35,781 nt of DNA, from NCBI GenBank assembly GCA_945898055.1, contig CAMDGV010000044.1:1-35781 (forward strand), in the 5' to 3' direction. Position numbers and translations under genes: made by a program. The notes under the pieces were generated by a model. It searched no databases and had not been told where the DNA came from. It saw nothing but the letters and a program-made list of their open reading frames with translations. The DNA comes from Akkermansia muciniphila. GTDB taxonomy: Bacteria; Verrucomicrobiota; Verrucomicrobiia; Limisphaerales; UBA9464. Of this stretch, positions 2,590 to 35,456 are shown in pieces. Position 1 is the first letter of the stretch. The number at the start of each line of letters is the position of its first letter.

Positions 2590-4644
2590 TTACCAAATGA
2601 CGGTTCGTTTTTCGGGTGCTAACCACATTGGAGCCCCTTCTAAAATACCAAAAGCTTGGTAGAAAGCCGGATGATTCAGGTGAGGCCCAATCCCCCGAAA
2701 AATGGCTGGAGAATGGGGATCAACTGTCAAGCGTCGCACTAATTCAGCCTCGCGATAATTCGATCGCCAGAGTTGGGAGAGTGATAAAAAGAAACGCTGC
2801 TCTGGGGTAAATCCATCGATAGTTTTACGCTTAGCTGGGTCACGAGCCAAAGCTCTTTGCAGGGCTTCAAAGGCGATGGTGACACCTCCCAAATCGGCGA
2901 TGTTTTCGCCCAAGGTTAACCGCCCATTTACCTTCTTGCCCGGCAAAGCTTCATAACCACCATATTGATCAACTAACTTCTGCGTTCGACGATCGAACTC
3001 CGTCGCATCTGCTGCTGTCCACCAGTCATTTAGATTCCCTGAGGCATCGAACTTCCGGCCTTGATCGTCGTAGCCGTGGGTAATTTCGTGACCGATAACT
3101 ACCCCAATGGCCCCGTAATTAATCGCGTCATCGAGGGTCACGTCAAAAAAAGGCGGCTGCAAAATACCGGCAGGAAAAACGATTTCGTTCTGCAATGGAT
3201 TAAAGTAGGCGTTAACCGTCTGGGGGGTCATTTCCCATTCCGTCTTGTCGACGGTTCCACCGAGGCGTTTGACCTGACGGCGGTGCTCGAATTCCGATGC
3301 TCGCTGCAGATTACCGATCAGGTCATCGCGCTGAATAACAAGGCGAGAGTAGTCGCGGAAGACAACAGGATAGCCGATTTTCTGAGTGAATCGTTCAAAC
3401 TTAACTCGTGCCTTCAACCGAGTCTCGTTACTCATCCAGTCTAATCGAGCGAGGCGATCAACAAAAACTGTACGTAAATCTGCGACCAACTCAGTCATTC
3501 GCCGCCGGGCTTCATCGGTGAAATGTCGTTCGACAAAGAGTGCGCCTAGGGCTTCGCCAAGGTTAGCATCAACGAGCTTAGACGCCCGTTGCCAGCGCGG
3601 TTCCTGAGTGAGTTGGCCACGCAGTGCTGTCCCATAAAAAGCAAAGGACTCCTGAGCGGCGGCCGCATGGAGCCAAGGGGCGACGCTCCGGATGACATGC
3701 CAACGAAGATAGGTTTTCCAAGCGGTCAGTGGTTTCTCAACCAGGAGCGTGTTTAAACCTCGAAAAAACTGAGGTTGCCCCACAATGACTTCTGTCACTC
3801 CTGCGGCCTGCACAACACTCAAGTAGCGATTCCAATCCAACGCTGGGGTCAAGGCATCGAGTTCGGTGCGGTTCAGTTTGGTGTAATTAGCGAGAGCATC
3901 CCGAAGTTCGACTCGAGGCTTACTAACCTGAGCTAAAGCGGTCTCAAGTTCGAGTACCGTGTCCGCCGCCGCCGCCGCCGCGGCAACGGTTGTCCCAGAC
4001 AGGTGAAACATCTTTGAAATATGGACGCGGTAAGCGTCCCGCTGTTTGGCAAAGCCCTCAGCCAAATAGTAATCACGATCAGGGAGGCCTAGTCCGCCTT
4101 GAGATAAATAGAGGGCATACGTCACACTATTTTTAGCGTCGGCTTCAATTCCAGTACCAAATAAAACTCCCGTCGAACGTGTATGAAGTTTACCCACCAG
4201 CGTTAAGAGAGAGGGTAGGTCTTGGAGAGCATCGATCTGTTTAAAATCAGGAGTCAGCGGAGAAAATGCGCGACGTTCGCTGAGCGAAATATCCATGGCC
4301 GAGGCATACAAATCCCCCACCTGTGCGGCCGCCTTTCCCTTCACCCGGCGAGCCGCAGAGTCGTCGAGGATTTGCCGGATTAAAAACCAATTACGTTGGT
4401 CCAATTCATCAAAACCGCTCCAGCGAGATTTGTCTCCCGGTACCGGATTATTTCGACGCCAAGTCCCAGCGGCAAAGGCGTAGAAGTCGTCGGAGGGTTT
4501 GACTGATCGATCCATGTAGTCGACAGAAAACCGAGGAATATCAGGAATTCGCGGGGTGCTTACCGACGGAACAGGGGGCAGAGGAGGAGGCGTACCGCAA
4601 CCGGTGTAGAGGGCAAAGGCGAGAAGGCAAAAGAGCCATTTCAT
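2590..4644 (-). CDS. M13 family (neprilysin/PepO-like) zinc metallopeptidase lipoprotein
   Basis: The 684-residue protein begins with a lipoprotein signal peptide whose lipobox ends at Cys16 (LYTGC), so it is probably anchored in the periplasm or outer membrane. The N-terminal M13 domain has the usual early motif PSDDFYAFAAGTW. The catalytic domain carries NAYFNP, the zinc motif H519-E-I-T-H523 and the downstream E580-N-I-A-D584, giving two His and one Glu as zinc ligands and Glu520 as the base. Length and motif order match complete M13 enzymes, which cleave oligopeptides on the N-side of hydrophobic residues. A run of seven alanines near residue 223, encoded by a GCC/GCG repeat (about 3962-3985), interrupts the N-terminal helical domain. 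No partner is evident; the divergent neighbour is cinA. Confidence 0.95.
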   Translation of the reverse strand: MKWLFCLLAFALYTGCGTPPPLPPVPSVSTPRIPDIPRFSVDYMDRSVKPSDDFYAFAAGTWRRNNPVPGDKSRWSGFDELDQRNWFLIRQILDDSAARRVKGKAAAQVGDLYASAMDISLSERRAFSPLTPDFKQIDALQDLPSLLTLVGKLHTRSTGVLFGTGIEADAKNSVTYALYLSQGGLGLPDRDYYLAEGFAKQRDAYRVHISKMFHLSGTTVAAAAAAADTVLELETALAQVSKPRVELRDALANYTKLNRTELDALTPALDWNRYLSVVQAAGVTEVIVGQPQFFRGLNTLLVEKPLTAWKTYLRWHVIRSVAPWLHAAAAQESFAFYGTALRGQLTQEPRWQRASKLVDANLGEALGALFVERHFTDEARRRMTELVADLRTVFVDRLARLDWMSNETRLKARVKFERFTQKIGYPVVFRDYSRLVIQRDDLIGNLQRASEFEHRRQVKRLGGTVDKTEWEMTPQTVNAYFNPLQNEIVFPAGILQPPFFDVTLDDAINYGAIGVVIGHEITHGYDDQGRKFDASGNLNDWWTAADATEFDRRTQKLVDQYGGYEALPGKKVNGRLTLGENIADLGGVTIAFEALQRALARDPAKRKTIDGFTPEQRFFLSLSQLWRSNYREAELVRRLTVDPHSPAIFRGIGPHLNHPAFYQAFGILEGAPMWLAPEKRTVIW

Positions 4645-15250: not shown

Positions 15251-16633
15251 ATGAACCATTCCATGCGTAATTGTGCCGGTATGTTGCGAAGAGACTTCCT
15301 CCAAGTCGGATTGGGTGGATTTCTCGGGCTTGGTTTGACCGAGACACTCCGTCTGCGAGCCAGCACGGCGGTTGGGCGCTCGAGTACCGATCACAAGGCT
15401 CGTCCGAGTAGTGCTGGCGCAGCGACACCGCGCTCGACCAAGCCAATAAATTGCATTCTTATCTGGTTAGATGGGGGGCCATCTCATTACGAAAGTTTTG
15501 ACCCAAAACCAGAGGCTCCATCAGAGATTCGGGGTAGCTTTAGCACCATCTCCACGTCGGTCCCAGGAATCCGCTTCAGTGAAGCCGTGCCAGAATTGGC
15601 GAAGGTAGCGGACAAATTTACGGTGATTCGGTCGATCTGCCATAAAGATCCGAATCACGGCGGCGGCAATCATTATATGATGACGGGGTCTCCCACTCCA
15701 GTTCCAGTGGCTTGCGGCGCACACGTTACTTTTCATCCTTCCCTCGGTTCGGTTGTTTCCAATCAACGTGGACAGCACGAAGGCCTGCCACCCTATGTTT
15801 CTATGCCCTCGGTCACTCGGAGTGGCGGCCCTCACTTTTTAGGGGGTAAACACGCGCCATTCGTGATTGATGGCCAACCCAATTCGGCCTCCTTCAAAGT
15901 TCGTGATGTTGTGTTGCCTTCGGACATCAGCGAAGGCCGTGCGGCGTCGCGCCGGGATTTACGGTCGTCGCTGGACCATATGGAACGGTTGACCGATCGC
16001 CTGGCCGAAGATCCTGCGGTTACCTTCGATGAATATTTGCAACAAAGTGTCCAACTGATGCTGTCTTCGAAGGCGCAAGCGGCTTTCGATATCTCCCGCG
16101 AAGAACCTAAAGTCCGAGATCTGTACGGACGCAATGATTTCGGTCAACGCCTCTTAATGGCTCGGCGCATGGTCGAAGTCGGTGTTTCTTGGGTCACGGT
16201 CACGAGTGGAGGTTGGGATCATCACACCAAAATCTTCGATGCTTACAAAGGTGATGCCGGAAAGAATATGGATCGTGGGGTCGCTGCCTTGATCACTGAC
16301 CTCGATCGTCTCGGCCTTCTCGAGACAACTTTAGTCGTCTTACTCGGCGAGTTCGGCCGCACTCCGAAGGTTAATAAAGACGCCGGCCGCGACCACTGGC
16401 CTTATGCTATGTCTGTCCTGATGGCCGGAGCCGGTTGCCCGCGCGGCGCGATCATTGGGGCGACCGATGCCAAGGGCTATGCAGCCTCAGAGAATGTGTA
16501 TCGCCCCGAGGACTTTGCCGCTTCCGTCTATTCTAAAATGGGGATCGATCCTGCCCAAGTCCTCCATACCCCTACCGGTCGACCTGTTCAGTTGGTCAAT
16601 AACGGTCGCCGAATCCGCGAACTCTTCTCCTGA
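15251..16633 (+). CDS. DUF1501 domain protein with Tat signal
   Basis: The 460-residue protein begins with a twin-arginine signal, R13-R-D-F-L17 followed by the Gly/Leu-rich stretch VGLGGFLGLGL, so it is exported folded. The body is the DUF1501 fold, related to sulfatases and alkaline phosphatases: WLDGGPSHYESFDPKP near the start, NHGGGNHYMMTG, a GGWDHHTKIFD block, and the C-terminal LLGEFGRTPKVN followed by GRDHWPYAMSVLMAGAG. These His/Asp-rich blocks probably bind metal. In Planctomycetes and Verrucomicrobia such genes usually sit beside DUF1549/DUF1553 cytochrome-type genes; here only the PPC-domain gene follows, 9 nt downstream, so the two are surely co-transcribed. The substrate is unknown. 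Confidence 0.92.
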   Translation: MNHSMRNCAGMLRRDFLQVGLGGFLGLGLTETLRLRASTAVGRSSTDHKARPSSAGAATPRSTKPINCILIWLDGGPSHYESFDPKPEAPSEIRGSFSTISTSVPGIRFSEAVPELAKVADKFTVIRSICHKDPNHGGGNHYMMTGSPTPVPVACGAHVTFHPSLGSVVSNQRGQHEGLPPYVSMPSVTRSGGPHFLGGKHAPFVIDGQPNSASFKVRDVVLPSDISEGRAASRRDLRSSLDHMERLTDRLAEDPAVTFDEYLQQSVQLMLSSKAQAAFDISREEPKVRDLYGRNDFGQRLLMARRMVEVGVSWVTVTSGGWDHHTKIFDAYKGDAGKNMDRGVAALITDLDRLGLLETTLVVLLGEFGRTPKVNKDAGRDHWPYAMSVLMAGAGCPRGAIIGATDAKGYAASENVYRPEDFAASVYSKMGIDPAQVLHTPTGRPVQLVNNGRRIRELFS

Positions 16634-16642
16634 ATCGATCGC

Positions 16643-18334
16643 ATGGAACGTCTCGTCAGTGCCCTTTCTGTTTTCCTTTTTGTCCTTTTTCTCGCTCGTG
16701 CTACCCGGGGGCAAGCAGCGGTTCCTGTCTTGGAAGGCTTATTTCCTGTGGCCTTAGAAAGAGGGCAAACCCATCAAGTAACCGCTGTCGGTAAATTTGA
16801 TCCGTGGCCTCCAAAAGTGTGGACCGAAACGCCGGGGGTTCAGATCGAACCTTCAACCAATGTCGGAATGCTCAAGGTGATCATCACCTCTAATACCCCC
16901 TCAGGCCCTTATTTTATCCGGCTTTTTAACGACGAAGGCGCTAGCAATCCGCGTTTCCTGATGGTGACGCCTGATCCTCAGGGGGGTGAAGAAGAACCCA
17001 ATAATCATTTTCTTAAACCTCAGAAGATCAGCAAACTCCCGGCGGCAATTAATGGAAGGTTAGAGAAACAAGGCGACGTAGATTCTTTTGCGGTGACACT
17101 GGTCTCAGGACAAACACTGGTGGCATCCTTGGAGGCCTACACCCTGATGTCACCGGTAGACGCCGTCCTGCAAATCGTCGATGACCGAGGAAAGCAGATG
17201 GCTTTCAACCATGATAATGGTCGCACCTTTGATCCTTTTCTCAGTTGGACATGTCAGGTAGCGGGAACCTATGTGGTGCAAGTGTTCGGATTTGCCTATC
17301 CAGCTGATTCCGATATCCGCTTCACGGGTAACCCTCGGTGCATTTATCGATTGCATCTCACTTCTGGTCCCGCAATTTCCTATACTCTTCCACTCGGCAT
17401 CCGCCGAGGTTCATCGACCTCGCTCCGATTGGTGGGGTGGAACCTTGGAGCTTTGAACGATCAACCGGTGATCTTTGATGGTTCCACATTAGGCCCGCGG
17501 GTCGACCGAGTTTTGTTTCAACCTTCGGGATTTGCCCTGCCGCTAGAAGTGGAGATCGGTGAGGGGCCAGAAGTACTAGAGACCGAACCGAATGGGCCGA
17601 AGGATCCCGCCAATCCCATCGAGATTCCGGGGGCGATAAGCGGTTCGATTGGTTTCAGTGGAGATGAAGATCGGTTCGCTTTCTCCGCGCGCAAAGGAGA
17701 TCGCTGGGCTTTGGATCTTAAGGCGGCAAGTCTCGGATTCTTGGTAGATGCCTGGTTGGAGATCCACGATGCCGCAGGAAAAATGCTGGTCCGAAACGAG
17801 GGAGGAAACGGAAGCGATCCGCGATTAGACTGGACCGTGCCATCGGATGGAACCTATCTAGCGAGCGTCGGCAATCTTTTACATCGCGGTGGTGATTCTC
17901 TGCGCTATCGACTCCAAATTATACACCCTGTTCCCTCAGTAAAAGTCACCGTCAGTGAAAACTCTTTTACCTTAGCTCCCGGAGCCACCAACGACATCAA
18001 AGTAAGTCTTAAACGCCTGTTCGGATCGGAAGCAGTTCTCACTCTCTCCATTACAAACTTACCGACCGGAGTATCGGCTCAACCTGTGACACTTTCTGCG
18101 AAAGACTTAGAAGGAGTCCTAAAATTAATCGCGACCCCGGATGCCAAACCGTTCACCGGAACTTTTCGCATTCAGGCTGAGGCTAAGGAAGGAGGTCGGG
18201 TCCAGTTGGCAATGATGGAATTGATCAGTAGCGGCGAAAATAACGGGGTGCCCCAAGGGTTCAAACGACTGCTCATCGAGTCTGTTGACGCCTTCTGGTT
18301 GACCCTAACCGCTCCGCCGAAGGCTAAAAAATGA
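16643..18334 (+). CDS. Exported protein with two pre-peptidase C-terminal (PPC) domains
   Basis: A 563-residue protein with a Sec signal peptide (hydrophobic 5-20, cleavage likely after the Gly-Gln-Ala region at about 23-26). Two PPC-type beta-sandwich domains are visible: about 115-225 beginning EEEPNN and about 308-425 beginning ETEPNG, each followed by the typical G-x-I-x-x-x-G-D-x-D-x-F core and a GTY(V/L) strand. The C-terminal region (about 430-530) looks like an Ig-like/NPCBM-associated sandwich. No catalytic residues were recognised, so it probably binds or presents substrate for the DUF1501 enzyme encoded 9 nt upstream. Homologous DUF1501-PPC pairs recur in Planctomycetes and Verrucomicrobia. 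The stop codon overlaps an ATG of a 49-codon frame (ATGA). Confidence 0.85.
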   Translation: MERLVSALSVFLFVLFLARATRGQAAVPVLEGLFPVALERGQTHQVTAVGKFDPWPPKVWTETPGVQIEPSTNVGMLKVIITSNTPSGPYFIRLFNDEGASNPRFLMVTPDPQGGEEEPNNHFLKPQKISKLPAAINGRLEKQGDVDSFAVTLVSGQTLVASLEAYTLMSPVDAVLQIVDDRGKQMAFNHDNGRTFDPFLSWTCQVAGTYVVQVFGFAYPADSDIRFTGNPRCIYRLHLTSGPAISYTLPLGIRRGSSTSLRLVGWNLGALNDQPVIFDGSTLGPRVDRVLFQPSGFALPLEVEIGEGPEVLETEPNGPKDPANPIEIPGAISGSIGFSGDEDRFAFSARKGDRWALDLKAASLGFLVDAWLEIHDAAGKMLVRNEGGNGSDPRLDWTVPSDGTYLASVGNLLHRGGDSLRYRLQIIHPVPSVKVTVSENSFTLAPGATNDIKVSLKRLFGSEAVLTLSITNLPTGVSAQPVTLSAKDLEGVLKLIATPDAKPFTGTFRIQAEAKEGGRVQLAMMELISSGENNGVPQGFKRLLIESVDAFWLTLTAPPKAKK

Positions 18335-26116: not shown

Positions 26117-26211
26117 GGCGTTTGAATCCTAGCTGAGCTCACTCTGGGTGCGCTAAGCCTTTTTCTTCTGTGCCTTGAATCTTGTCGCCGCCACCTCATG
26201 ATTGCTGGCCA

Positions 26212-27975
26212 ATGAAACAGTTTGCCTTGGCCGCTCTCTTTGCCTTAGCCGGATGTCACGGATCCGGCGGGTCGAAGGAGTCTAAATCGGCTGAATTTGA
26301 CCACCTAGCCAACGACTTTATCGCCTCCCATTACGCTGCTCGCCCTCTCGAGGCAGTTGCTTTGGGCCTGCATGAGCACGATGGCCGATTTCTGGTCCCT
26401 GATCGGCAGTTTTTCCAATCAGAAATAACTCGGCTGAACACCGCTTCTCAGAAGTTTAACAGCCTTCAAACCAAGCGTCTTTCCCCTGATCAACAGCGCG
26501 AACTCAAGGTCCTCCAATCGACTGTCGCCACCGCCCGATGGACTCTTGATTCTATTCAAACTCCAAGCCGTAATCCGATGTATTATGCCAGCGCATTGGA
26601 CGTCAGTGTTTATCTGAAACGCGACTTTGTCCCGCTCCGAGACCGCGTCCGAATGATCACCTCGGTCCTGTCCAAAGCACCTGAGGTCTTTGCTGCAGCA
26701 CGGCAAACTCTTTTGCCCGATTTGGCGCTCCCTCTGGTCGAGACCGCGATAGAAATTACCGAAGGCACTGCAGGCTTCTTGGAAAAAGACGTCGCAGCAG
26801 AGGTGGCTAAGTCAGGGGATTTAGCGGCGGCCGAGGAGTACACCAGGGTCGCTGGTCGCGCCGTGACTGAGTTACGTGCTTATGCCGACTGGTTGCGGAA
26901 GACGCGTTTACCGACGGCCCATCCTCGTTTTGCCATTGGAACCCTGGCTTATGCTGAGATGCTTCGTACCGAACTGATTGACCTCTCGCCCACTGAAGTT
27001 CTTGCGATCGGTCTAACTGAACTTCGCATTGAACAGGCTCGTTTCATCGCCGCCGCACGCCTCATTGATCCCACTCGGACGGCGGCAGAAGTGTTCAAAG
27101 AAGTGCAACAGGATCATCCCACCGAGCAGTCTCTTTTGCCGGATACCCGACGCGGACTTGAAACGATCCGAGCCTTTGTTTTAGAACGAGATTTACTGAC
27201 GATTCCCAGTGAAGTCCGTGCGCGGGTTGAGGCGACCCTTCCGCCCTTTCGAGCAACGTCATTTGCCTCGATGGACACGCCAGGTCCATTTGAGCGCAAA
27301 GCCACCGAGGCCTACTATTATGTGACCCCACCAGAACCCGAATGGCCGCAGTCGCAGAAGGAGGAATGGTTGACGGCCTATAATTATTACACCACCGATG
27401 TGGTCAGCATCCACGAGACGTACCCCGGACATTATGTGCAGTTTTTGGCACTGAACGCCTCGACTATCGGGCCAGTTGGTAAAGTTTTTGTCAGCTACGC
27501 GTTCGCTGAAGGCTGGGCTCATTATACCGAACAACTGCTGATCGAAGCCGGATTTGGTGGACCTAAAGCAGCGGAAAAAGCCACGATTCAAGAGCAAGTG
27601 CGTGGAGCGAAATATCGCCTAGCTCAATCGAGCGAAGCTCTCCTTCGTCTCTGCCGTTTGTGTTGTTCGGTTAAATTGCATTGCGAGAAAATGACCGTCG
27701 ATGAAGCCACTCGTTTCTTTATGGAAAATTCATTTTATGAAATGCGCCCAGCTCAGAGTGAAGCCCTCCGTGGCACCTACGATCCGGGTTATTGTTTTTA
27801 CACCCTCGGTAAATTGCAGATCCTTAAGCTCCGCAAGGATGTGCGCGAGCAGGAGGGGGCTTCATTTAGTTTGAAACGATTTCACGATAATCTCCTCGCC
27901 CACGGCGCACCGCCAATTCGTGTGCTGCGTGAGATTTTGCTCAAAAATCCGGCGTCTTGGCCTCAGGTTCTCTAA
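26212..27975 (+). CDS. DUF885 family metallopeptidase-like lipoprotein
   Basis: From the ATG at 26212 the protein has 587 residues and a lipoprotein signal ending in LAGC (Cys15); the longer frame from the TTG at 26182 would only add ten residues before this signal. The DUF885 hallmarks are present: the zinc-type motif H401-E-T-Y-P-G-H407 and the downstream E433 in FAEGWAHYTEQL, plus MRPAQSEALRGTYDPGY near the C-terminus. The family is related to M2/M3-type gluzincin peptidases, and a periplasmic peptidase role is expected, though substrates are not known. Length is typical (550-600). The GlcF-like gene begins 28 nt downstream, implying co-transcription. Confidence 0.9.
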   Translation: MKQFALAALFALAGCHGSGGSKESKSAEFDHLANDFIASHYAARPLEAVALGLHEHDGRFLVPDRQFFQSEITRLNTASQKFNSLQTKRLSPDQQRELKVLQSTVATARWTLDSIQTPSRNPMYYASALDVSVYLKRDFVPLRDRVRMITSVLSKAPEVFAAARQTLLPDLALPLVETAIEITEGTAGFLEKDVAAEVAKSGDLAAAEEYTRVAGRAVTELRAYADWLRKTRLPTAHPRFAIGTLAYAEMLRTELIDLSPTEVLAIGLTELRIEQARFIAAARLIDPTRTAAEVFKEVQQDHPTEQSLLPDTRRGLETIRAFVLERDLLTIPSEVRARVEATLPPFRATSFASMDTPGPFERKATEAYYYVTPPEPEWPQSQKEEWLTAYNYYTTDVVSIHETYPGHYVQFLALNASTIGPVGKVFVSYAFAEGWAHYTEQLLIEAGFGGPKAAEKATIQEQVRGAKYRLAQSSEALLRLCRLCCSVKLHCEKMTVDEATRFFMENSFYEMRPAQSEALRGTYDPGYCFYTLGKLQILKLRKDVREQEGASFSLKRFHDNLLAHGAPPIRVLREILLKNPASWPQVL

Positions 27976-28003
27976 GCATAGCCTATCAAATTTTCCTAAA
28001 ATC

Positions 28004-29308
28004 GTGCCCAAACCTGTCTCCCATCTTAAGGCTCTCGACTACTCCATTGTTCAACAGTGTATCCACTGTGGGCTCTGTCTACCTACCTGCCCTACCTACG
28101 ACGCCACTAAGCTCGAACGGAACTCGCCGCGTGGTCGTATCGCCTTGATGCGCGCTATTACCGACGATCGATTGGAACCTACGCGAACCTTTGCTGAAGA
28201 GATGTATTTTTGTCTCGGCTGCCTCGCCTGCATGACCGCCTGTCCGGCTGGCGTCAATTATGCTGAACTTTTTGAACGCGCACGGGCTGAGGCCGAGGCT
28301 TCTGGGGTCCTAGCCTCGCCCCGCAGATCTGCCATTCGCGCCTTCACCCTCGGGTGGTTGTTCACCGATCTTAATCGACTCAAATTGTTGGGAAACCTTC
28401 TGCGCCTTTGGCAAGAACTTGGGCTACAGGCCGCCGTTCGCAGCAGCGGTCTTCTGAGAATTCTTCCGGCACGCTTGGCCGAACTGGAAGCAATGACCCC
28501 AGAGGTGCAACCGGCTTTCTCAGAAGATATGATTTCCCCAGTGACTCCACCGGTCGGCCAGCGCCGTTACCGGGTCGCGGTACTGACCGGTTGTGCTCAA
28601 GATCTTCTCTTCAGCGATGTGAATCGAGATACGGTCGAAGTTTTGGCGCAGAACGGATGTGAGGTCATCACCCCATCGGATCAACACTGCTGCGGTTCTT
28701 TACACGCTCACAATGGCGAATGGACCTTGGCCCAAGAATTGGCCCGTCGAAATATTGATCAGTTTCCGCCGGCACAATTCGATGCCATCATTACCAATGC
28801 GGGCGGATGTGGATCTCATTTAAAACACTATGCCACGTTGCTAGCCGATGATCCAAAGTATTTGGTTCGGGCCCAACTTTGGGATCGCCGGGTAAAAGAT
28901 ATTCACGAATGGCTAGAGCTGATCGGGGTAGTACCGCCGGCTTCCACGGGTGCACCGGTTCAGAAGATTACCTATCACGATTCCTGTCATTTGTGTCATG
29001 GACAGAAGGTGGTGAGCCAACCGCGACGGCTCTTAAAATCATTGCCGGGAGTGACGCTCGTCGAACTCCCTGAAGCCTCTTGGTGTTGCGGGAGTGCGGG
29101 AATTTATAACCTTACCCAGCCAGAAATGTCCGCACAACTCTTGGAACGGAAAGTGAACCACATTGCATCAACTGGGGCAAACGTGGTTGCCACGGGTAAT
29201 CCGGGCTGTCTCTTGCAGGTGGCCAATGGATGTCGTCAACGAGGCCTTAAGATTCGCACAGTCCATCCGGTGAGTTTACTGGCCGAAGCCTATCGTCGGG
29301 TCGGGTAA
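28004..29308 (+). CDS. glcF: Glycolate oxidase iron-sulfur subunit (GlcF-like)
   Basis: About 434 residues from the GTG at 28004. Two ferredoxin-type clusters are encoded near the N-terminus: C19-I-H-C22-G-L-C25-x3-C29-P, and a second set in FCLGCLACMTACPAG (about 71-85). Two CCG domains follow, with QHCCGSLHAHNG near 230 and SWCCGSAGIYNLTQ near 360. This is the layout of GlcF, the membrane-peripheral subunit that passes electrons from a GlcD/GlcE flavin dehydrogenase to quinone during oxidation of glycolate or other 2-hydroxy acids. No glcD or glcE lies in the window, so the partner must be elsewhere. A longer frame beginning at 27920 overlaps the DUF885 gene and was rejected. Confidence 0.9.
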   Translation: MPKPVSHLKALDYSIVQQCIHCGLCLPTCPTYDATKLERNSPRGRIALMRAITDDRLEPTRTFAEEMYFCLGCLACMTACPAGVNYAELFERARAEAEASGVLASPRRSAIRAFTLGWLFTDLNRLKLLGNLLRLWQELGLQAAVRSSGLLRILPARLAELEAMTPEVQPAFSEDMISPVTPPVGQRRYRVAVLTGCAQDLLFSDVNRDTVEVLAQNGCEVITPSDQHCCGSLHAHNGEWTLAQELARRNIDQFPPAQFDAIITNAGGCGSHLKHYATLLADDPKYLVRAQLWDRRVKDIHEWLELIGVVPPASTGAPVQKITYHDSCHLCHGQKVVSQPRRLLKSLPGVTLVELPEASWCCGSAGIYNLTQPEMSAQLLERKVNHIASTGANVVATGNPGCLLQVANGCRQRGLKIRTVHPVSLLAEAYRRVG

Positions 29309-29565: not shown

Positions 29566-31119
29566 TTAATGGACAACTAAACGAAAACAGGCGGCTTCTC
29601 GATCGCTGCGGGCCAAGACTAGGTCACCGGCTAAAGCAATCGGATTCCATGTCTTGCCCTTAAACGCCCGATAACGACCCAGTTCCCCACTGCCAGCGGT
29701 GGTCGGGCGCATCAAAATCATCTCCCCGTTTTCAGCCATCAATAGATAAAGGTCGTTTATCCAAACCCCTTGGCCATGACCATAACGGCCTTCTTTCCAC
29801 TTCTGGGATCCATCCCGAATATCAAGACAAGCCAAAATCCCATCATCGAGCCCGTAGACATAGCCGTCGTGCAAAACCGGATTGGAAAATTTTGCTTTAA
29901 GACGTTTCGATACCCAGACGGACTTCGGCCCCAAAACCCCGCTCGAATCGGGCTGAATCTCAAAAAGTTCAGCTCCCACCCCGTACCCCGCTGTCACAAG
30001 AAATCGATTAGAAGAAACAACAATGGGATTTGCCACAAGCGGAAAGCCTGTCCCCCATGTTCGCTTCCAAAGTTGGGCCCCAGTCAAGGGATTGTGCGCA
30101 GCGATTTCATGGTGATTAACCACTAAAATCTGCTCTTGCCCGGCCAGAGTCACCAACGAAGGGGAGGCATAATCAATCGCCCCAGACCCGCCCGCACCAA
30201 TGAGTTCTCCGGTGCCGACGTCGAAGATCAGCAGGGATTGATTGTTTCGCCCACCGGCACCGACATAAACACGACCCTTAGCGACTAACGGTGACCCCGA
30301 AACCCCCCATTCAGGCACCGAGGCACCGGTGAGACTTACCACGTTGGTTCCCCAAAGACGCCGTCCCGTGGATAAGTCTAAGCACTGCAGCCAACCATTG
30401 GAACCGAGGGTCAAGACACGTCCATCGGCAACGGTAGGGGTACTGCGCGGTCCCTCGCCGCCGATGGGATTAGCGTAGCGACCCGAGTTCGTTGCGGTCC
30501 AAAGCAGGGCGCCAGTTAGAGCTTGGAAACAAAGCACCTGTTCCTCCGCGCCATTTTGTTCCAAAGTCAAGGCTCGGTCGCCCACCACAGCGAAGCCAGA
30601 CCACGCGGCTCCAACGGGTTTCCTCCATAATTCCACCGGGGGATTGCGGCCCCAATCTGAATCCAGACTGGGTCCAGTGAGAATACCGGTTCGGTTAGGA
30701 CCCAAGAAGTGTGGATACTCTCCGGGCACCCGTCGGAGGGCCTGATTTGCCGTCCCAGCAGTAGCTCGCACAGAGCTCGACCTAAATTTTTCAGCCCCCT
30801 TAAATTCGATAATTGGAATGAGATCACCCGTAACGCCGTGGATTCTGAGCGTTGCGAAGCCACCGCCGACGAGGAGAACCAGACCGAGCAGAGAAAGAAG
30901 ACGAACTTTGGTGGAAGCTCGCGAAAAGAAGAGCCACCAAAAAATGAGGAGCAAAAGAGCCCCAGCACCGATGGGGAGTGAAATAAGGTTACGCCGTTGA
31001 AAAGGAAATTCGGAGAGCGATTGAACAACAAGAATAGCGATCGTCGCCACGCTCAGAATGAGTAAACAAGGCCACCAACGAAGAGGACGCTTAGACTGCT
31101 TTGCTGACGTATTGCTCAT
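29566..31119 (-). CDS. Membrane-anchored PQQ-like beta-propeller protein
   Basis: The 517-residue protein begins with three hydrophobic helices (about 15-35, 45-66 and 73-90) and continues into an exported propeller domain. Blade motifs of the PQQ-like type are visible: VLCFQALTGALLWTA, CLDLSTGRRLWGTN, LLIFDVGTGELIGA, IAAHNPLTGAQLWKR and CLDIRDGSQKWKEG. No PQQ-dehydrogenase catalytic residues were recognised. The blade sequence GPRSTPTVADGRVLTLG resembles GPRCAPLIAEDRVITFG in the 13269-14621 protein, so the two are probably paralogues, one secreted and one anchored. The start ATG at 31119 lies before the basic stretch that precedes the first helix. It is divergent from the epimerase gene by about 155 bp. 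The function is unknown. Confidence 0.83.
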   Translation of the reverse strand: MSNTSAKQSKRPLRWWPCLLILSVATIAILVVQSLSEFPFQRRNLISLPIGAGALLLLIFWWLFFSRASTKVRLLSLLGLVLLVGGGFATLRIHGVTGDLIPIIEFKGAEKFRSSSVRATAGTANQALRRVPGEYPHFLGPNRTGILTGPSLDSDWGRNPPVELWRKPVGAAWSGFAVVGDRALTLEQNGAEEQVLCFQALTGALLWTATNSGRYANPIGGEGPRSTPTVADGRVLTLGSNGWLQCLDLSTGRRLWGTNVVSLTGASVPEWGVSGSPLVAKGRVYVGAGGRNNQSLLIFDVGTGELIGAGGSGAIDYASPSLVTLAGQEQILVVNHHEIAAHNPLTGAQLWKRTWGTGFPLVANPIVVSSNRFLVTAGYGVGAELFEIQPDSSGVLGPKSVWVSKRLKAKFSNPVLHDGYVYGLDDGILACLDIRDGSQKWKEGRYGHGQGVWINDLYLLMAENGEMILMRPTTAGSGELGRYRAFKGKTWNPIALAGDLVLARSDREAACFRLVVH

Positions 31120-31274: not shown

Positions 31275-32126
31275 ATGAGATTTGGAATCAACACTTTCCT
31301 GTTCACCTCCCCGTTTACCACTGACTCAATCAAACTGTTTCCCAAGTTTAAGAAATGGGGATTTCAAACGATTGAGATTCCAGTTGAGGCCCCCGAGCAC
31401 ATTAACCCAGCTCAGGTGAAGGCTGCGGCCGACAAAAACGGCTTAGTGGTCGGTAGCATCTGTGCTTGCATGGGGCCAGGCCGCGACTTTCGCGGCACTC
31501 CCGAAGAACAACAGACTGCCACAACCTACATCACTGCCTTGATTGACCAAGCGGTCGTCCTCGGCTGCCCATCCATCATTGGCCCAATTTATTCGGTGGT
31601 GGGTCGGACGGGTGCCCATACCGACGCTGAGCGTAAACAACAGTTTGCCGAGGTCGTTAAACACCTGAAACCCTTAGCCAAGTACGCCGAAGCCAAGGGC
31701 ATAACCCTCTGTATTGAACCTCTTAATCGTTTTGAGACCGATTTCCTCAATACCTGCGACCAAGGACTCAAACTGGTCAAAGCCGTGAAGTCTAAAGCCG
31801 TGAAACTGCATCTCGATACGTTCCATATGAATATCGAGGAGAAAAATCAGGGCGAAGCTATCCGCAAGGCGGGTCCGTATCTCGCCCATTTCCACGCTTG
31901 CGGCACCGACCGCGGGACCCCAGGTAATGATTCACTCGATTGGAAGCCCATTGTCGCGGCACTTAAGGCGATTAAATATCAGGGAGATGTGGTCATCGAG
32001 AGTTTTACTACCGATGTCAAAGTCATCGCGCGCGCCGCCGCTATTTGGCGTCGGATGGAACCTACCCGAGATGAAATCGCGGTCAAAGGATTACAAAATC
32101 TGCATCGCATCTTCGGAAAGAAGTAG
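31275..32126 (+). CDS. D-psicose/D-tagatose 3-epimerase-like sugar isomerase
   Basis: The 283-residue TIM-barrel protein (AP endonuclease family 2 fold) starts at the ATG at 31275, where homologues begin M-x-(F/Y)-G-I-N-T. The metal ligands of the Agrobacterium psicose 3-epimerase (Glu150, Asp183, His209, Glu244) line up with Glu148 (CIEPLNRFETDFLNT), Asp181 (HLDTFHMN), His207 (FHACGTDRG) and Glu242 (VIESF), with a constant offset of two. The second-shell His184 and Arg213 are also present. It should epimerise ketohexoses at C3 using Mn2+ or a similar metal, in the cytoplasm; an isomerase of keto-sugars or inososes is an alternative. It lies 73 nt before the oxidase/hydrolase fusion gene, probably in one transcript, which hints at a 3-ketosugar role. 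Confidence 0.9.
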   Translation: MRFGINTFLFTSPFTTDSIKLFPKFKKWGFQTIEIPVEAPEHINPAQVKAAADKNGLVVGSICACMGPGRDFRGTPEEQQTATTYITALIDQAVVLGCPSIIGPIYSVVGRTGAHTDAERKQQFAEVVKHLKPLAKYAEAKGITLCIEPLNRFETDFLNTCDQGLKLVKAVKSKAVKLHLDTFHMNIEEKNQGEAIRKAGPYLAHFHACGTDRGTPGNDSLDWKPIVAALKAIKYQGDVVIESFTTDVKVIARAAAIWRRMEPTRDEIAVKGLQNLHRIFGKK

Positions 32127-32199
32127 TCTCTTTTTATTAGAGATTCTACCTGTCCTCAAAAAAATTAATCCCGAACACTTTGAAGAACTCTTCCCTCCC

Positions 32200-35100
32200 A
32201 TGAAGCCCCTTTTATTGCGAACTGCCCTGACGATATGGGCCTTTTTGGTTGCCCATACTTTGTTGGGCGCGACCCCCGCGCCGATTGCTGAGCCCGGGTT
32301 CATCTCACTTTTCAACGGTCGCGATTTGACCGGTTGGTCCGGAGCACCCGGCTTCTGGTCGGTAGAATCTGGAACCCTTATCGGCCGAACCACGGCCTCG
32401 CGTCCCGCTAAAGGGAATACCTTCCTCATTGCTCAGGTGAACTCCCAAAATCGAATAGTCGATGATTTCGAATTGCGATTTTCCTATCGCATCGTCGCCG
32501 ATAACAACACTGGGTTTGCCAATTCTGGCGTTCAGTACCGCAGTATCGACAAAGGTAACTTTAGCGTTGCTGGTTATCAGGCCGACTTTGAGGCCGGATC
32601 AACCTACTCGGGTATTTTATACGATGAATCCGGGGGTGCCGGAGGTCGAGGGATCATGGCCGAGCGCGGCGAGTCAGTGAAATGGAGCGCAGACGGGCAG
32701 AAATCTGCGCTCGGACCTCTGGGTAAGTCCGCAGAAATCCAAGCAAAGATCCGGCCGAACGAATGGAATGACTACGTCATCATCGCCCGAGGTAATGAAC
32801 TGCAGCACTTCATCAACGGAGTGAAAACGGTCAATGTGGTGGATGAAACCTCAGGCAAACGATTGGCGTCAGGGATTCTCGCCCTGCAATTGCACGCCGG
32901 CGATCCGATGACTGTCCAATTCAAAAATCTGCGAATCCGCTCTCTCTTTACCGCAGGGACCGCCGGCGGTGCAGCGGTCAAAGTGGCTGCCGGATTTAAA
33001 TTGGAGTCGCTCTATACGGTCCCAAAAGCAACCGAAGGTTCTTGGGTGGCGATGTGCTTGGATCCCAAGGGGCGACTCCTTGTTTCGGATCAATATGGGG
33101 CTTTGCACCGAGTCACTTTGCCACCCTTAACCGGTGGGGTGGTTAAAACTGAGAAGATCAATCTCGAGGTCGGAAATGCGCACGGTCTGTTATATGCTTT
33201 TGATAGCCTCTACGTGGCAGTAAATGAAGGAAATCGTCCGCATGGTCTTTACCGAGTACGCGACACCAACAACGATGATGTCTTCGATAAGGTTGAACTG
33301 CTCCGAGAAATTAAGGCAGGCGGTGAACACGGAGTTCATTCGCTGGTCCTTTCGCCCGATGGACAATCGATCTACGTGGTCGTCGGCAACCAAAGCACAC
33401 TGACGCCGGTGGATTCCTCTCGGGTCCCGATGATCTGGGGTGAAGACAACCTTTTGCCTCGGCTACAAACGGGGTTCATGGATGACTCTTTGGCCCCTCA
33501 AGGGTGGATTGCTAAGACCGATCCTGAAGGTAAGAAATGGGAACTCATTTCCATGGGCTTACGGAACGAATTCGACGTGGCCTTTAATCACGAAGGTGAA
33601 TTATTCACTTACGACGCAGATATGGAATGGGATATCGGCGCGCCATGGTATCGGCCCACCCGTGTGAATCACGTTATTAGTGGCGCTGAGTATGGGTTTC
33701 GGAATGGCGATGGTAAGTGGCCAGATTACCTGATCGATAGCTTGGGTGCTGCCGTAAACATTGGGCCAGGCTCGCCGACGGGGATTAGCTTCGGGTATGG
33801 AGCGAAGTTTCCCGCCAAATACCAAAACGCCTTGTTTCTCGCTGACTGGAGCTTCGGAAAAGTTCGCGCCGTGTATTTGCGTCCGGATGGCTCTTCTTAC
33901 ACGGGAGATTTTGATGAGTTCATTAGTGGTCAACCGTTTCCTGTCACCGACTTTATCATCAATCCACGGGATGGCGCTATGTATCTTGCCGTTGGCGGTC
34001 GAGGGGCGCAGTCGGCTTTATATCGGGTGACCTACACCGGAACCGAATCCACGGCCCCAACAGGCCCCGATTTACGCCTGCAAAAGCAACGGGATTTGCG
34101 GCATCGGTTGGAGGCCTTCCACGGACATGCCGATGCCTCGGCTGTCACGACAGTTTGGCCGTTTCTTTCCAATCCAGATCGATCGATTCGGTTTGCTGCA
34201 CGGACGGCACTTGAATGGCAGGATCCTACGGGATGGCGCGAACGTGCCTTATCGGAAAAGAACCCGCGGAAGGCGATCCACGCCTTGGTCGGTTTGATCC
34301 GTATCAGCGGGATTGATTCGGCTCATCGTTCGGCAAAAAGCCCGATCGTTGATCCTGCCTTGTCACGACGGATTATGGCTGCGTTGGATCGAATCGATTG
34401 GGTTCAACTGACGCCCAGTGATCGAGTAGACCTCTTGCGGGCTTGGTCCCTCGCCTTCATTCGCTTAGGTCGGCCTGATGAAACCCTTCAGAGGCAACTG
34501 GCAACAAAGTTAGAGCCGTTATTTCCGGCCAAAGATCGAGGTACAGATTTGTTGATGGCACAAATTCTCGCGTATCTTCAGTCACCACAAGCGGCCCATA
34601 AATTGATGGCTGCCTTACGCACTGCCCCTACTCAAGAAGAGCAAATTGATTATGTATCTGCACTGCGAGAAGTGAAAAACGGATGGACACTTCCTTTGAG
34701 AGAAGAGTACTTCCGTTGGTTCCAAAAGGCAGAGGGCTATCGCGGCGGGAATACCTTTGCGAGCTCCATTCGCACTATGCGAAAAAAAGCGACCGAAGCT
34801 CTTTCTGAAACCGACAAAACAGCCTTGGCTGGGATATTGAACGCGAAGACTGAGAGGAAAAGCCCTCGAGATGCGCTGACGGCTCGATCCTTTGTGAAGG
34901 AATGGACAACCGCAGAACTGGTGCCCTTGCTAGAGCAAGGACTCCAAGGAGGACGTAACTTCGAACGTGGCCGTAAACTCTACGGTGAAGTCGCCTGCGC
35001 GGCCTGTCATCGCTTCGGTCAAGAGGGTGGATCGGTCGGACCTGAACTAACCGGTGTCGCCGGCCGATTCAATCTCCGAGACATGCTGGACGCGATTATC

Positions 35101-35397
35101 GAACCAAGCAAAATTATCAGCGATCAATACGAGGCGATTTTAGTTGCTAAGAAAAATGGCGAAACCCTCTCAGGTCGCGTCGCCAATCTGGGTGGAGGCG
35201 ATCTCAACCTTGTCGAAGATATGTTTGACCCCGGCAACATGACTAATATCAAACGCACGGAAATTGAGTCGATTGAACCTTCCAAAATTTCGATGATGCC
35301 TGAAGGGTTGTTGAATAGCCTCAAGGCGGATGAAATTTCTGATCTTCTTGCCTATCTTTTTACCCGAGGTGACTCCACGCATAAGAGCTTCAAGTAA
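32200..35397 (+). CDS. DUF1080 hydrolase - dehydrogenase propeller - cytochrome c fusion protein
   Basis: A 1065-residue exported protein from the ATG at 32200, which opens a clear signal peptide (cleavage near 24-26). Domain 1 (about 28-245) is the 3-keto-disaccharide hydrolase (DUF1080) sandwich beginning FISLFNGRDLTGWSG. Domain 2 (about 255-615) is a PVC-type membrane-bound dehydrogenase propeller related to glucose/sorbosone dehydrogenases, with GLRNEFDVAFNHEGELFTYD. A helical HEAT-like region spans about 625-905. Domain 3 (about 915-1065) is the PVC-type heme module: C933-A-A-C936-H937 and the likely axial ligand Met1032 or Met1033 in MMPEGLL. The layout suggests oxidation of a glycoside with transfer of electrons to heme, coupled to cleavage of the 3-keto product. 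The 91 residues upstream in the open frame overlap the epimerase gene and are not real. Confidence 0.92.
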   Translation: MKPLLLRTALTIWAFLVAHTLLGATPAPIAEPGFISLFNGRDLTGWSGAPGFWSVESGTLIGRTTASRPAKGNTFLIAQVNSQNRIVDDFELRFSYRIVADNNTGFANSGVQYRSIDKGNFSVAGYQADFEAGSTYSGILYDESGGAGGRGIMAERGESVKWSADGQKSALGPLGKSAEIQAKIRPNEWNDYVIIARGNELQHFINGVKTVNVVDETSGKRLASGILALQLHAGDPMTVQFKNLRIRSLFTAGTAGGAAVKVAAGFKLESLYTVPKATEGSWVAMCLDPKGRLLVSDQYGALHRVTLPPLTGGVVKTEKINLEVGNAHGLLYAFDSLYVAVNEGNRPHGLYRVRDTNNDDVFDKVELLREIKAGGEHGVHSLVLSPDGQSIYVVVGNQSTLTPVDSSRVPMIWGEDNLLPRLQTGFMDDSLAPQGWIAKTDPEGKKWELISMGLRNEFDVAFNHEGELFTYDADMEWDIGAPWYRPTRVNHVISGAEYGFRNGDGKWPDYLIDSLGAAVNIGPGSPTGISFGYGAKFPAKYQNALFLADWSFGKVRAVYLRPDGSSYTGDFDEFISGQPFPVTDFIINPRDGAMYLAVGGRGAQSALYRVTYTGTESTAPTGPDLRLQKQRDLRHRLEAFHGHADASAVTTVWPFLSNPDRSIRFAARTALEWQDPTGWRERALSEKNPRKAIHALVGLIRISGIDSAHRSAKSPIVDPALSRRIMAALDRIDWVQLTPSDRVDLLRAWSLAFIRLGRPDETLQRQLATKLEPLFPAKDRGTDLLMAQILAYLQSPQAAHKLMAALRTAPTQEEQIDYVSALREVKNGWTLPLREEYFRWFQKAEGYRGGNTFASSIRTMRKKATEALSETDKTALAGILNAKTERKSPRDALTARSFVKEWTTAELVPLLEQGLQGGRNFERGRKLYGEVACAACHRFGQEGGSVGPELTGVAGRFNLRDMLDAIIEPSKIISDQYEAILVAKKNGETLSGRVANLGGGDLNLVEDMFDPGNMTNIKRTEIESIEPSKISMMPEGLLNSLKADEISDLLAYLFTRGDSTHKSFK

Positions 35398-35422: not shown

Positions 35423-35456
35423 AACGGTTAGGCTCAGAGCCTAACCGTTTTTCTTT
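35423..35456 (+). terminator. Strong rho-independent terminator
   Basis: AACGGTTAGGCTC (35423-35435) and GAGCCTAACCGTT (35437-35449) are perfect complements around one central A, giving a working stem of about 11 bp with a TCAGA loop, followed by TTTCTTT. It lies 25 nt after the fusion gene. On the minus strand the arm contains the stop codon of a short reading frame. Confidence 0.9.

Follow-up and report, generated by a model that had tools for sequence, protein, structure and literature searches.

A DUF1080-propeller-cytochrome fusion beside a ketose 3-epimerase-like gene in Verrucomicrobiota: a candidate oxidative route to sugars

The stretch of DNA analyzed in this work (hereafter the window, 35,781 nucleotides (nt)) is a complete contig (CAMDGV010000044.1, C44) of a draft genome deposited as Akkermansia muciniphila (GCA_945898055.1, G000; 4.6 Mb in 136 contigs, 95% complete). 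It encodes a ketose 3-epimerase-like protein and, 73 nt downstream, a fusion protein in which a DUF1080 domain precedes a propeller of the sugar dehydrogenase fold, a helical region, and a c-type cytochrome. We tentatively favor a reading that we consider quite possible, if short of probable: the exported propeller-heme chassis oxidizes a sugar or glycoside, the putative DUF1080 enzyme cleaves the oxidized product, and the cytosolic epimerase isomerizes the ketosugar that is released. More precisely, the propeller would oxidize its substrate in the periplasm, possibly at C3, and the electrons would pass to the heme c of the same chain and then to respiration. The N-terminal DUF1080, a member of the group found next to epimerases, would cleave the oxidized (3-keto-type) glycoside, and the ketosugar would presumably be taken up before the epimerase acts on it. 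For the most part, DUF1080 and TIGR02603 still lack an assigned role in Planctomycetota and Verrucomicrobiota, and the gene cluster and recurrent fusions described here lead to a testable hypothesis, that of an oxidative route to sugars.

The best evidence for placing the epimerase, DUF1080, and the propeller in one pathway is a cluster of epimerase, DUF1080, ThuA, and propeller genes found in other genomes. Orthologues of the epimerase were identified in 49 of 59 genomes (52 matches), 15 inside the genus and 34 outside it. We read their neighbors in all 15 genomes of the genus and in 33 of the 34 others, leaving out G032, where only 80 nt of contig follow the gene, and the second copies present in G009, G028, and G034. 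Outside the genus, 27 of the 33 genomes carry a same-strand DUF1080 gene downstream of their epimerase, at 750 nt or less in 26 of them and at 2.3 kb in G051. Inside the genus, this is the case in 2 of 15 genomes (G000 and G008), both times as the fusion. When 20 of the 27 loci were extended downstream to the contig limits, 11 proved to have ThuA (PF06283), 5 a TIGR02604-type propeller, and 2 a cytochrome domain. In one locus, ThuA and a TIGR02604 propeller form a single chain downstream of the epimerase and DUF1080 genes (L134:4728-7001). ThuA takes part in the metabolism of 3-keto-disaccharides in rhizobia. The pathway idea put forward in a first-pass annotation of the window is thus reasonable, and gene linkage gives it more backing than the sequence alone could offer.

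The fusion's DUF1080 domain is probably a descendant of the usual partner of the epimerase, given its position in the DUF1080 tree and a standalone member of the same group in the genome. The tree comprises 61 domains of at least 150 residues scoring at least 40 bits with a window-seeded model, including only 2 standalone domains from the window's genome. Seven fused rows, the window among them, form a clade (support 99, starred), and this clade belongs to a larger group of 36 rows (support 92, not starred) where 25 of the 27 DUF1080s adjacent to epimerases are also found. The genome retains a standalone DUF1080 of this epimerase-adjacent group (L008, contig C85), probably their orthologue. 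A copy of the fusion with 95% identity occurs in G008, of the same genus. This copy has one base fewer in the stretch encoding the signal peptide (L053, around 4002-4117), which puts the first Met out of the DUF1080 frame, a difference that may reflect the draft assembly or the use of another start.

The fusion protein corresponds to what the first-pass annotation had described, an exported protein of 1065 residues joining DUF1080, propeller, and cytochrome, with the signal peptide recognized by eye. Its AlphaFold2 (AF2) model has a mean predicted local distance difference test score (pLDDT) of 88.9 and a predicted template-modeling score of 0.75; the linker between DUF1080 and propeller is predicted with low confidence. 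The 16 top VIA structure matches of the propeller model all have titles that name AA12 or a dehydrogenase of PQQ (pyrroloquinoline quinone), glucose, aldose, or pyranose type (Z 28.5-31.0, root-mean-square deviation 2.5-3.1, 283-313 residues), and the next entry has a Z of 24.4. The AF2 model therefore gives the propeller the fold of the PQQ-dependent sugar dehydrogenases, in agreement with the earlier description of it as sorbosone-dehydrogenase-like. At the sequence level, phmmer searches of the propeller against the PDB gave nothing significant (best E 0.14), and a match of the propeller profile, 2ism (E 0.68, not significant alone), has the Gly-x-Arg-Asn stretch aligned. H377, H380, R455, and N456 are invariant in the 63 chains of alignment A3, made of the window and 62 of 77 chains (3 of 80 loci had been excluded earlier for low scores or masked bases).

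The heme domain exceeds the TIGR02603 cut-off (101.9 vs 68.15 bits) and carries the motif C933-A-A-C-H937, whose Cys, Cys, and His are kept in 62 of the 63 rows of A3 (one gap). Met1033, the probable axial ligand, is kept in 61 (two gaps) and lines up with Met292 of Kustd1711, a diheme cytochrome that carries Cys or His in place of this Met in the structures 7zs1 and 7zs2. Score, CxxCH motif, and distal Met all assign the domain to TIGR02603 and confirm the CAACH cytochrome initially reported. The HEAT-like region of the same report is retained in part: the model has a helical stretch at residues ~628-866, and none of the Pfam HEAT models matched the fusion protein, this stretch included. Overall, the chain resembles the heme-binding CxxCH proteins of PVC type (Planctomycetes-Verrucomicrobia-Chlamydiae; TIGR02604 plus TIGR02603, Pfam DUF7133), with which it shares a sugar-dehydrogenase-type propeller, helical repeats, and a C-terminal CxxCH domain. 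It differs from them by the added N-terminal DUF1080 and by a propeller that remains below the cut-off of the TIGR02604 subfamily (67.4 vs 122.2 bits). It shares the propeller fold with PQQ sugar dehydrogenases (sGDH, Asd 2g8s, AA12 pyranose dehydrogenase 6jt5, 6h7t), but combines its propeller with DUF1080 and a c-type heme in one chain and has a host without PqqC.

The cleavage step depends on DUF1080 being an enzyme, and a catalytic function is likely, the chief rival being a binding role. The domain scores above the curated cut-off of PF06439 (119 vs 26.8 bits, residues 33-247) and is modeled with a pLDDT of 94.3. Seven residues (N108, S109, R114, Q127, D129, Q230, and H232) are invariant in all 32 domains of alignment A1 (32 of 62 DUF1080 domains, 16 fused and 16 standalone; the propeller alignment A2 has 40 of 120), and the window keeps every polar residue that is invariant across the 16 standalone rows. 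Among solved structures, domain 1 of BT3469 (4jqt, a putative glycosyl hydrolase by title; Z 22.4) comes closest in fold, followed by other DUF1080s. The domain shares family and fold with the DUF1080 3-keto-glycoside eliminase/hydratases (BT2157, which is 3osd; 8rr2, 9fbe, 8tda, and 8v31 by PDB title) at Z values of 17.9-19.5, with 9fbe at 19.5 and BT2157 at 18.0.

In the rival reading, which we regard as somewhat unlikely, DUF1080 is a carbohydrate-binding module resembling CBM66 that brings the propeller-cytochrome to a polysaccharide, and the chain cleaves nothing. Fungal pyranose dehydrogenases offer a precedent, as they combine propeller, cytochrome, and carbohydrate-binding module in a single chain, and 6jt5, the PQQ domain of one of them, is among the top matches of the propeller. 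CBM66 itself (4azz) matches the DUF1080 model with a Z of 17.6, among the lower-scoring DUF1080 rows, about 2 below 9fbe and level with the other eliminase/hydratase members (17.8-18.2). A binding role would also suit the low-confidence linker, the frequent gain or loss of the domain, and the rhamnosidase-N-like sandwiches that otherwise fill the same slot. According to PMC5673643, DUF1080 is over-represented in Planctomycetes and its annotations overlap those of CBM66. However, at E<=0.01 the DUF1080 profile retrieves 14 PDB chains, all titled glycosyl/sugar hydrolase or 3-keto-disaccharide hydrolase, and no CBM66, and the best fold match is BT3469. The seven invariant residues look like those of an active site, and DUF1080s of the same group exist as single-domain proteins adjoining the epimerase.

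It is also conceivable, though rather unlikely in our view, that DUF1080 cleaves 3-keto-glycosides made by another enzyme, of the Gfo/Idh/MocA type, while the propeller-cytochrome oxidizes a different or a released sugar. The genome has 35 Gfo/Idh/MocA matches, proteins that could serve as alternative makers of 3-keto groups, and the sugar dehydrogenases sharing the fold of the window's propeller usually oxidize C1. The known DUF1080 partners, LacABC in Caulobacter and BT2158 in Bacteroides, are separate oxidoreductases. Those of the Bacteroides operon BT2156-BT2159 are of a family unlike this propeller; there, the DUF1080 protein BT2157 is encoded alongside BT2156, which we take to be a TIM-barrel protein, and BT2158, presumably Gfo/Idh-like. 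According to PMC12385236, BT2158 acts with BT2156 or BT2157 to produce isothiocyanates from glucosinolates, and according to PMC11501099, BT2157 and BT2158 are dispensable for growth on raffinose-family sugars. PMC9007349 cites BT2157 as a 3-ketotrehalose hydrolase and proposes a DUF1080 protein of Caulobacter as a 3'-ketolactose hydrolase acting with LacABC. Yet none of the 35 matches lies on the window contig, and DUF1080 is tied to propeller-cytochromes both by fusion and by operon linkage.

Finally, we find it very unlikely that the join is a product of domain shuffling with no functional coupling. Both families are abundant in the genome (24 PF06439 and 22 TIGR02603 matches), the fused state has been gained or lost repeatedly, and neighboring DUF1080 and heme-domain genes show no clear excess, all of which shuffling would explain. 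It explains less well that the two families came together repeatedly (the DUF1080 tree forces 2 changes or more), that the genome has two joins with propellers of different subfamilies, and that both also occur in one gene cluster in further families of this order.

Several observations count against the proposed oxidation and cleavage by one chain with the epimerase acting afterwards. The architecture is not unique. The best 80 of at least 585 loci comprise 23 fused ones, 2 with a DUF1080 at another place in the locus, and 55 without any, a class that may include loci on incomplete contigs (L176, L229). The fused loci span two phyla, Thalassoglobus neptunius KOR42 and Bythopirellula polymerisocia Pla144 being among the strains. 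The genome itself has a second fusion on contig C56, where DUF1080, GDSL, propeller, HEAT, and cytochrome lie in a single frame (L258:5895-9650), as well as a frame with two DUF1080 domains, which overlaps one for propeller, HEAT, and cytochrome (L256:4080-8821). The claim of the first-pass annotation that the single-chain architecture would be new is thus not borne out; we found no account of a DUF1080-propeller-cytochrome chain in the literature on DUF1080, 3-keto-glycosides, and PVC-type heme proteins, a coverage that leaves out most subscription papers. The propeller tree, in which 30 of the 123 rows are fused, requires 11 or more switches of the fused state on starred branches, and parsimony counts 16. 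The nearest relatives, with about 80% identity and all from one genus (G022, G028, and G034), are unfused; they retain a separate epimerase-DUF1080 pair (L124, L121, and L123, respectively). Pairs of DUF1080 and TIGR02603 within 5 kb number 3 in the window's genome vs 1.1 expected, which is no clear excess in what is a crude test, and a comparison of the neighbors of unfused propellers with the window genes only, using crude open reading frame (ORF) picking, gave nothing recurrent. DUF1080 was not found beside the epimerase in 6 of the 33 genomes outside the genus and in 13 of the 15 inside, some of these loci breaking off before 600 nt past the epimerase. In the flanks surveyed, the epimerase adjoins the fusion only in G000 and G008, the latter being the sole case (L155) among the 23 fused loci. 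We therefore rejected the candidate of a conserved epimerase-fusion unit. Within DUF1080, the window has Ala78 where 14 of the 16 standalone rows carry Trp. It falls outside the BT2157 group (37-row tree, support 90, obtained with a quick method and with several long branches) and lacks the YQxLDxxxHxD motif of that group. The initial suggestion that one polypeptide could oxidize, reduce heme, and cleave is thus supported in part, by the epimerase-DUF1080 link, the propeller fold, and the retained heme site, with a catalytic DUF1080 and oxidation at C3 standing as proposals.

The cofactor adds to these difficulties. We found no match to PqqC in the window's genome, which gives no indication that the host makes PQQ. 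PqqC exceeds the cut-off in 3 of 59 genomes, a set that counts the window's own, and in only 1 of the 51 relatives with a match to the fusion protein at 1e-120 or better (G053, whose match is at 1.7e-146). In a class-wide sample, it does so in 19 of 286 genomes and in none of the 62 with a strong match (G237 has a weak PqqC-like protein). The difference (0/62 vs 19/224, Fisher p 0.017) is a weak statistic, because kinship is uncorrected, and G053 has both PqqC and the propeller; the sets of 62 and 51 genomes overlap partly. Since PqqC is nearly always absent, most hosts must scavenge PQQ or use another cofactor. This near-absence of PQQ synthesis in the sampled hosts raises a cofactor question for a large protein family.

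The N-terminal position of the propeller-cytochromes seems to be an exchangeable slot. In a scan of 10 of the 32 N-terminal stretches from unfused relatives, Bac_rhamnosid_N exceeds the Pfam cut-off in two (L046, L076) and falls just under it in three (L084, L087, L198), while three match nothing. In L198 (1955-5152), a sulfatase, a rhamnosidase-N-like sandwich, and the propeller lie in one open frame, masked bases included. Because the same slot holds DUF1080, rhamnosidase-N-like, and sulfatase modules, we read the propeller-cytochrome as a redox chassis whose carbohydrate modules can be exchanged. A broader and rather unlikely extension is that of a one-chain platform of PVC bacteria for oxidative glycoside cleavage, in which a propeller without home-made PQQ, using another or a scavenged cofactor, would oxidize a glycoside and pass the electrons to the heme c of its own chain. 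The enzyme in the exchangeable N-terminal slot, be it DUF1080, ThuA, a sulfatase, or an esterase, would then work on that very molecule. A paralogue in the window's genome (L257:4321-7473, on G000:C73; 44% identity) has an N-terminal alpha-L-rhamnosidase match, far under the model cut-off, in place of DUF1080.

The epimerase gene starts at an ATG internal to a longer frame (Table 1). Its product matches the AP_endonuc_2 profile (134 bits) and stays below the NCBIfam cut-off for the D-psicose 3-epimerase equivalog (184 vs 300 bits). The four metal ligands announced by the first-pass annotation are indeed present: E148, D181, H207, and E242, which we take to be the ligands, and E154, H184, and R213, presumably sugar contacts, are invariant in the 12 aligned sequences, the window counted. 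These residues point to a ketose 3-epimerase, and such enzymes top the 32 matches to PDB sequences at E<=0.001, which also include the 3-keto-D-glucoside 4-epimerase 6wn6 (4.5e-16). The protein thus shares fold, metal ligands, and sugar-contact residues with the D-tagatose/D-allulose type, but scores under the D-psicose 3-epimerase cut-off and has DUF1080 as genomic partner. TIM-barrel eliminases of 3-keto-glycosides are described in PMC10628242. We consider a beta-eliminase of the AtOGE (8BVK) or PuCGE type less likely here, as neither is among the 32 matches.

Table 1. Features of the window discussed in the text, with the evidence for each.
Feature	Position	Strand	Basis
Divergent PQQ_2 (BamB-like) propeller gene, context only	29566..31119	-	ORF call, Pfam
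Ketose 3-epimerase-like TIM barrel	31275..32126	+	ORF call, Pfam/NCBIfam profiles, alignment; no signal peptide by eye
Intergenic gap between epimerase and fusion, 73 nt	32127..32199	+	ORF calls
Fusion protein, 1065 aa: signal peptide (by eye), DUF1080, propeller, helical region, c-type cytochrome	32200..35397	+	ORF call, profiles, AF2 model
PF06439 (DUF1080) domain, residues 33-247	32296..32940	+	Pfam 119 bits, tree, fold
Low-confidence linker, residues ~251-257	32950..32970	+	AF2 model residues 226-232, pLDDT < 50
Propeller, PQQ sugar dehydrogenase fold, residues ~263-615	32986..34044	+	AF2 model, fold comparison, alignment
Helical region, residues ~628-866	34081..34797	+	AF2 model
TIGR02603 c-type heme domain, residues 921-1054; CAACH 933-937; probable axial Met1033	34960..35361	+	Profile, alignment
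Terminator-like stem-loop after fusion stop, 12 pairs, T-rich tail	35423..35449	+	Site scan

No promoter-like or terminator-like site was found on the + strand between the epimerase and the fusion, and nothing promoter-like before the epimerase either. The scan says little about transcripts, since its counts are not above those of shuffled sequence (3 vs 3.3 promoters, 5 vs 6.2 terminators) and since the epimerase itself lacks a promoter call. Upstream, matches 41-54% identical to the divergent PQQ_2-type gene adjoin the epimerase in several further genomes of the genus. Elsewhere in the window, a DUF1501 gene is followed 9 nt on by a gene for a PPC-domain protein (15251-18334), and the longest frame of a GlcF/LdhH-like iron-sulfur protein (27920-29308) overlaps the end of a DUF885 gene (26182-27975).

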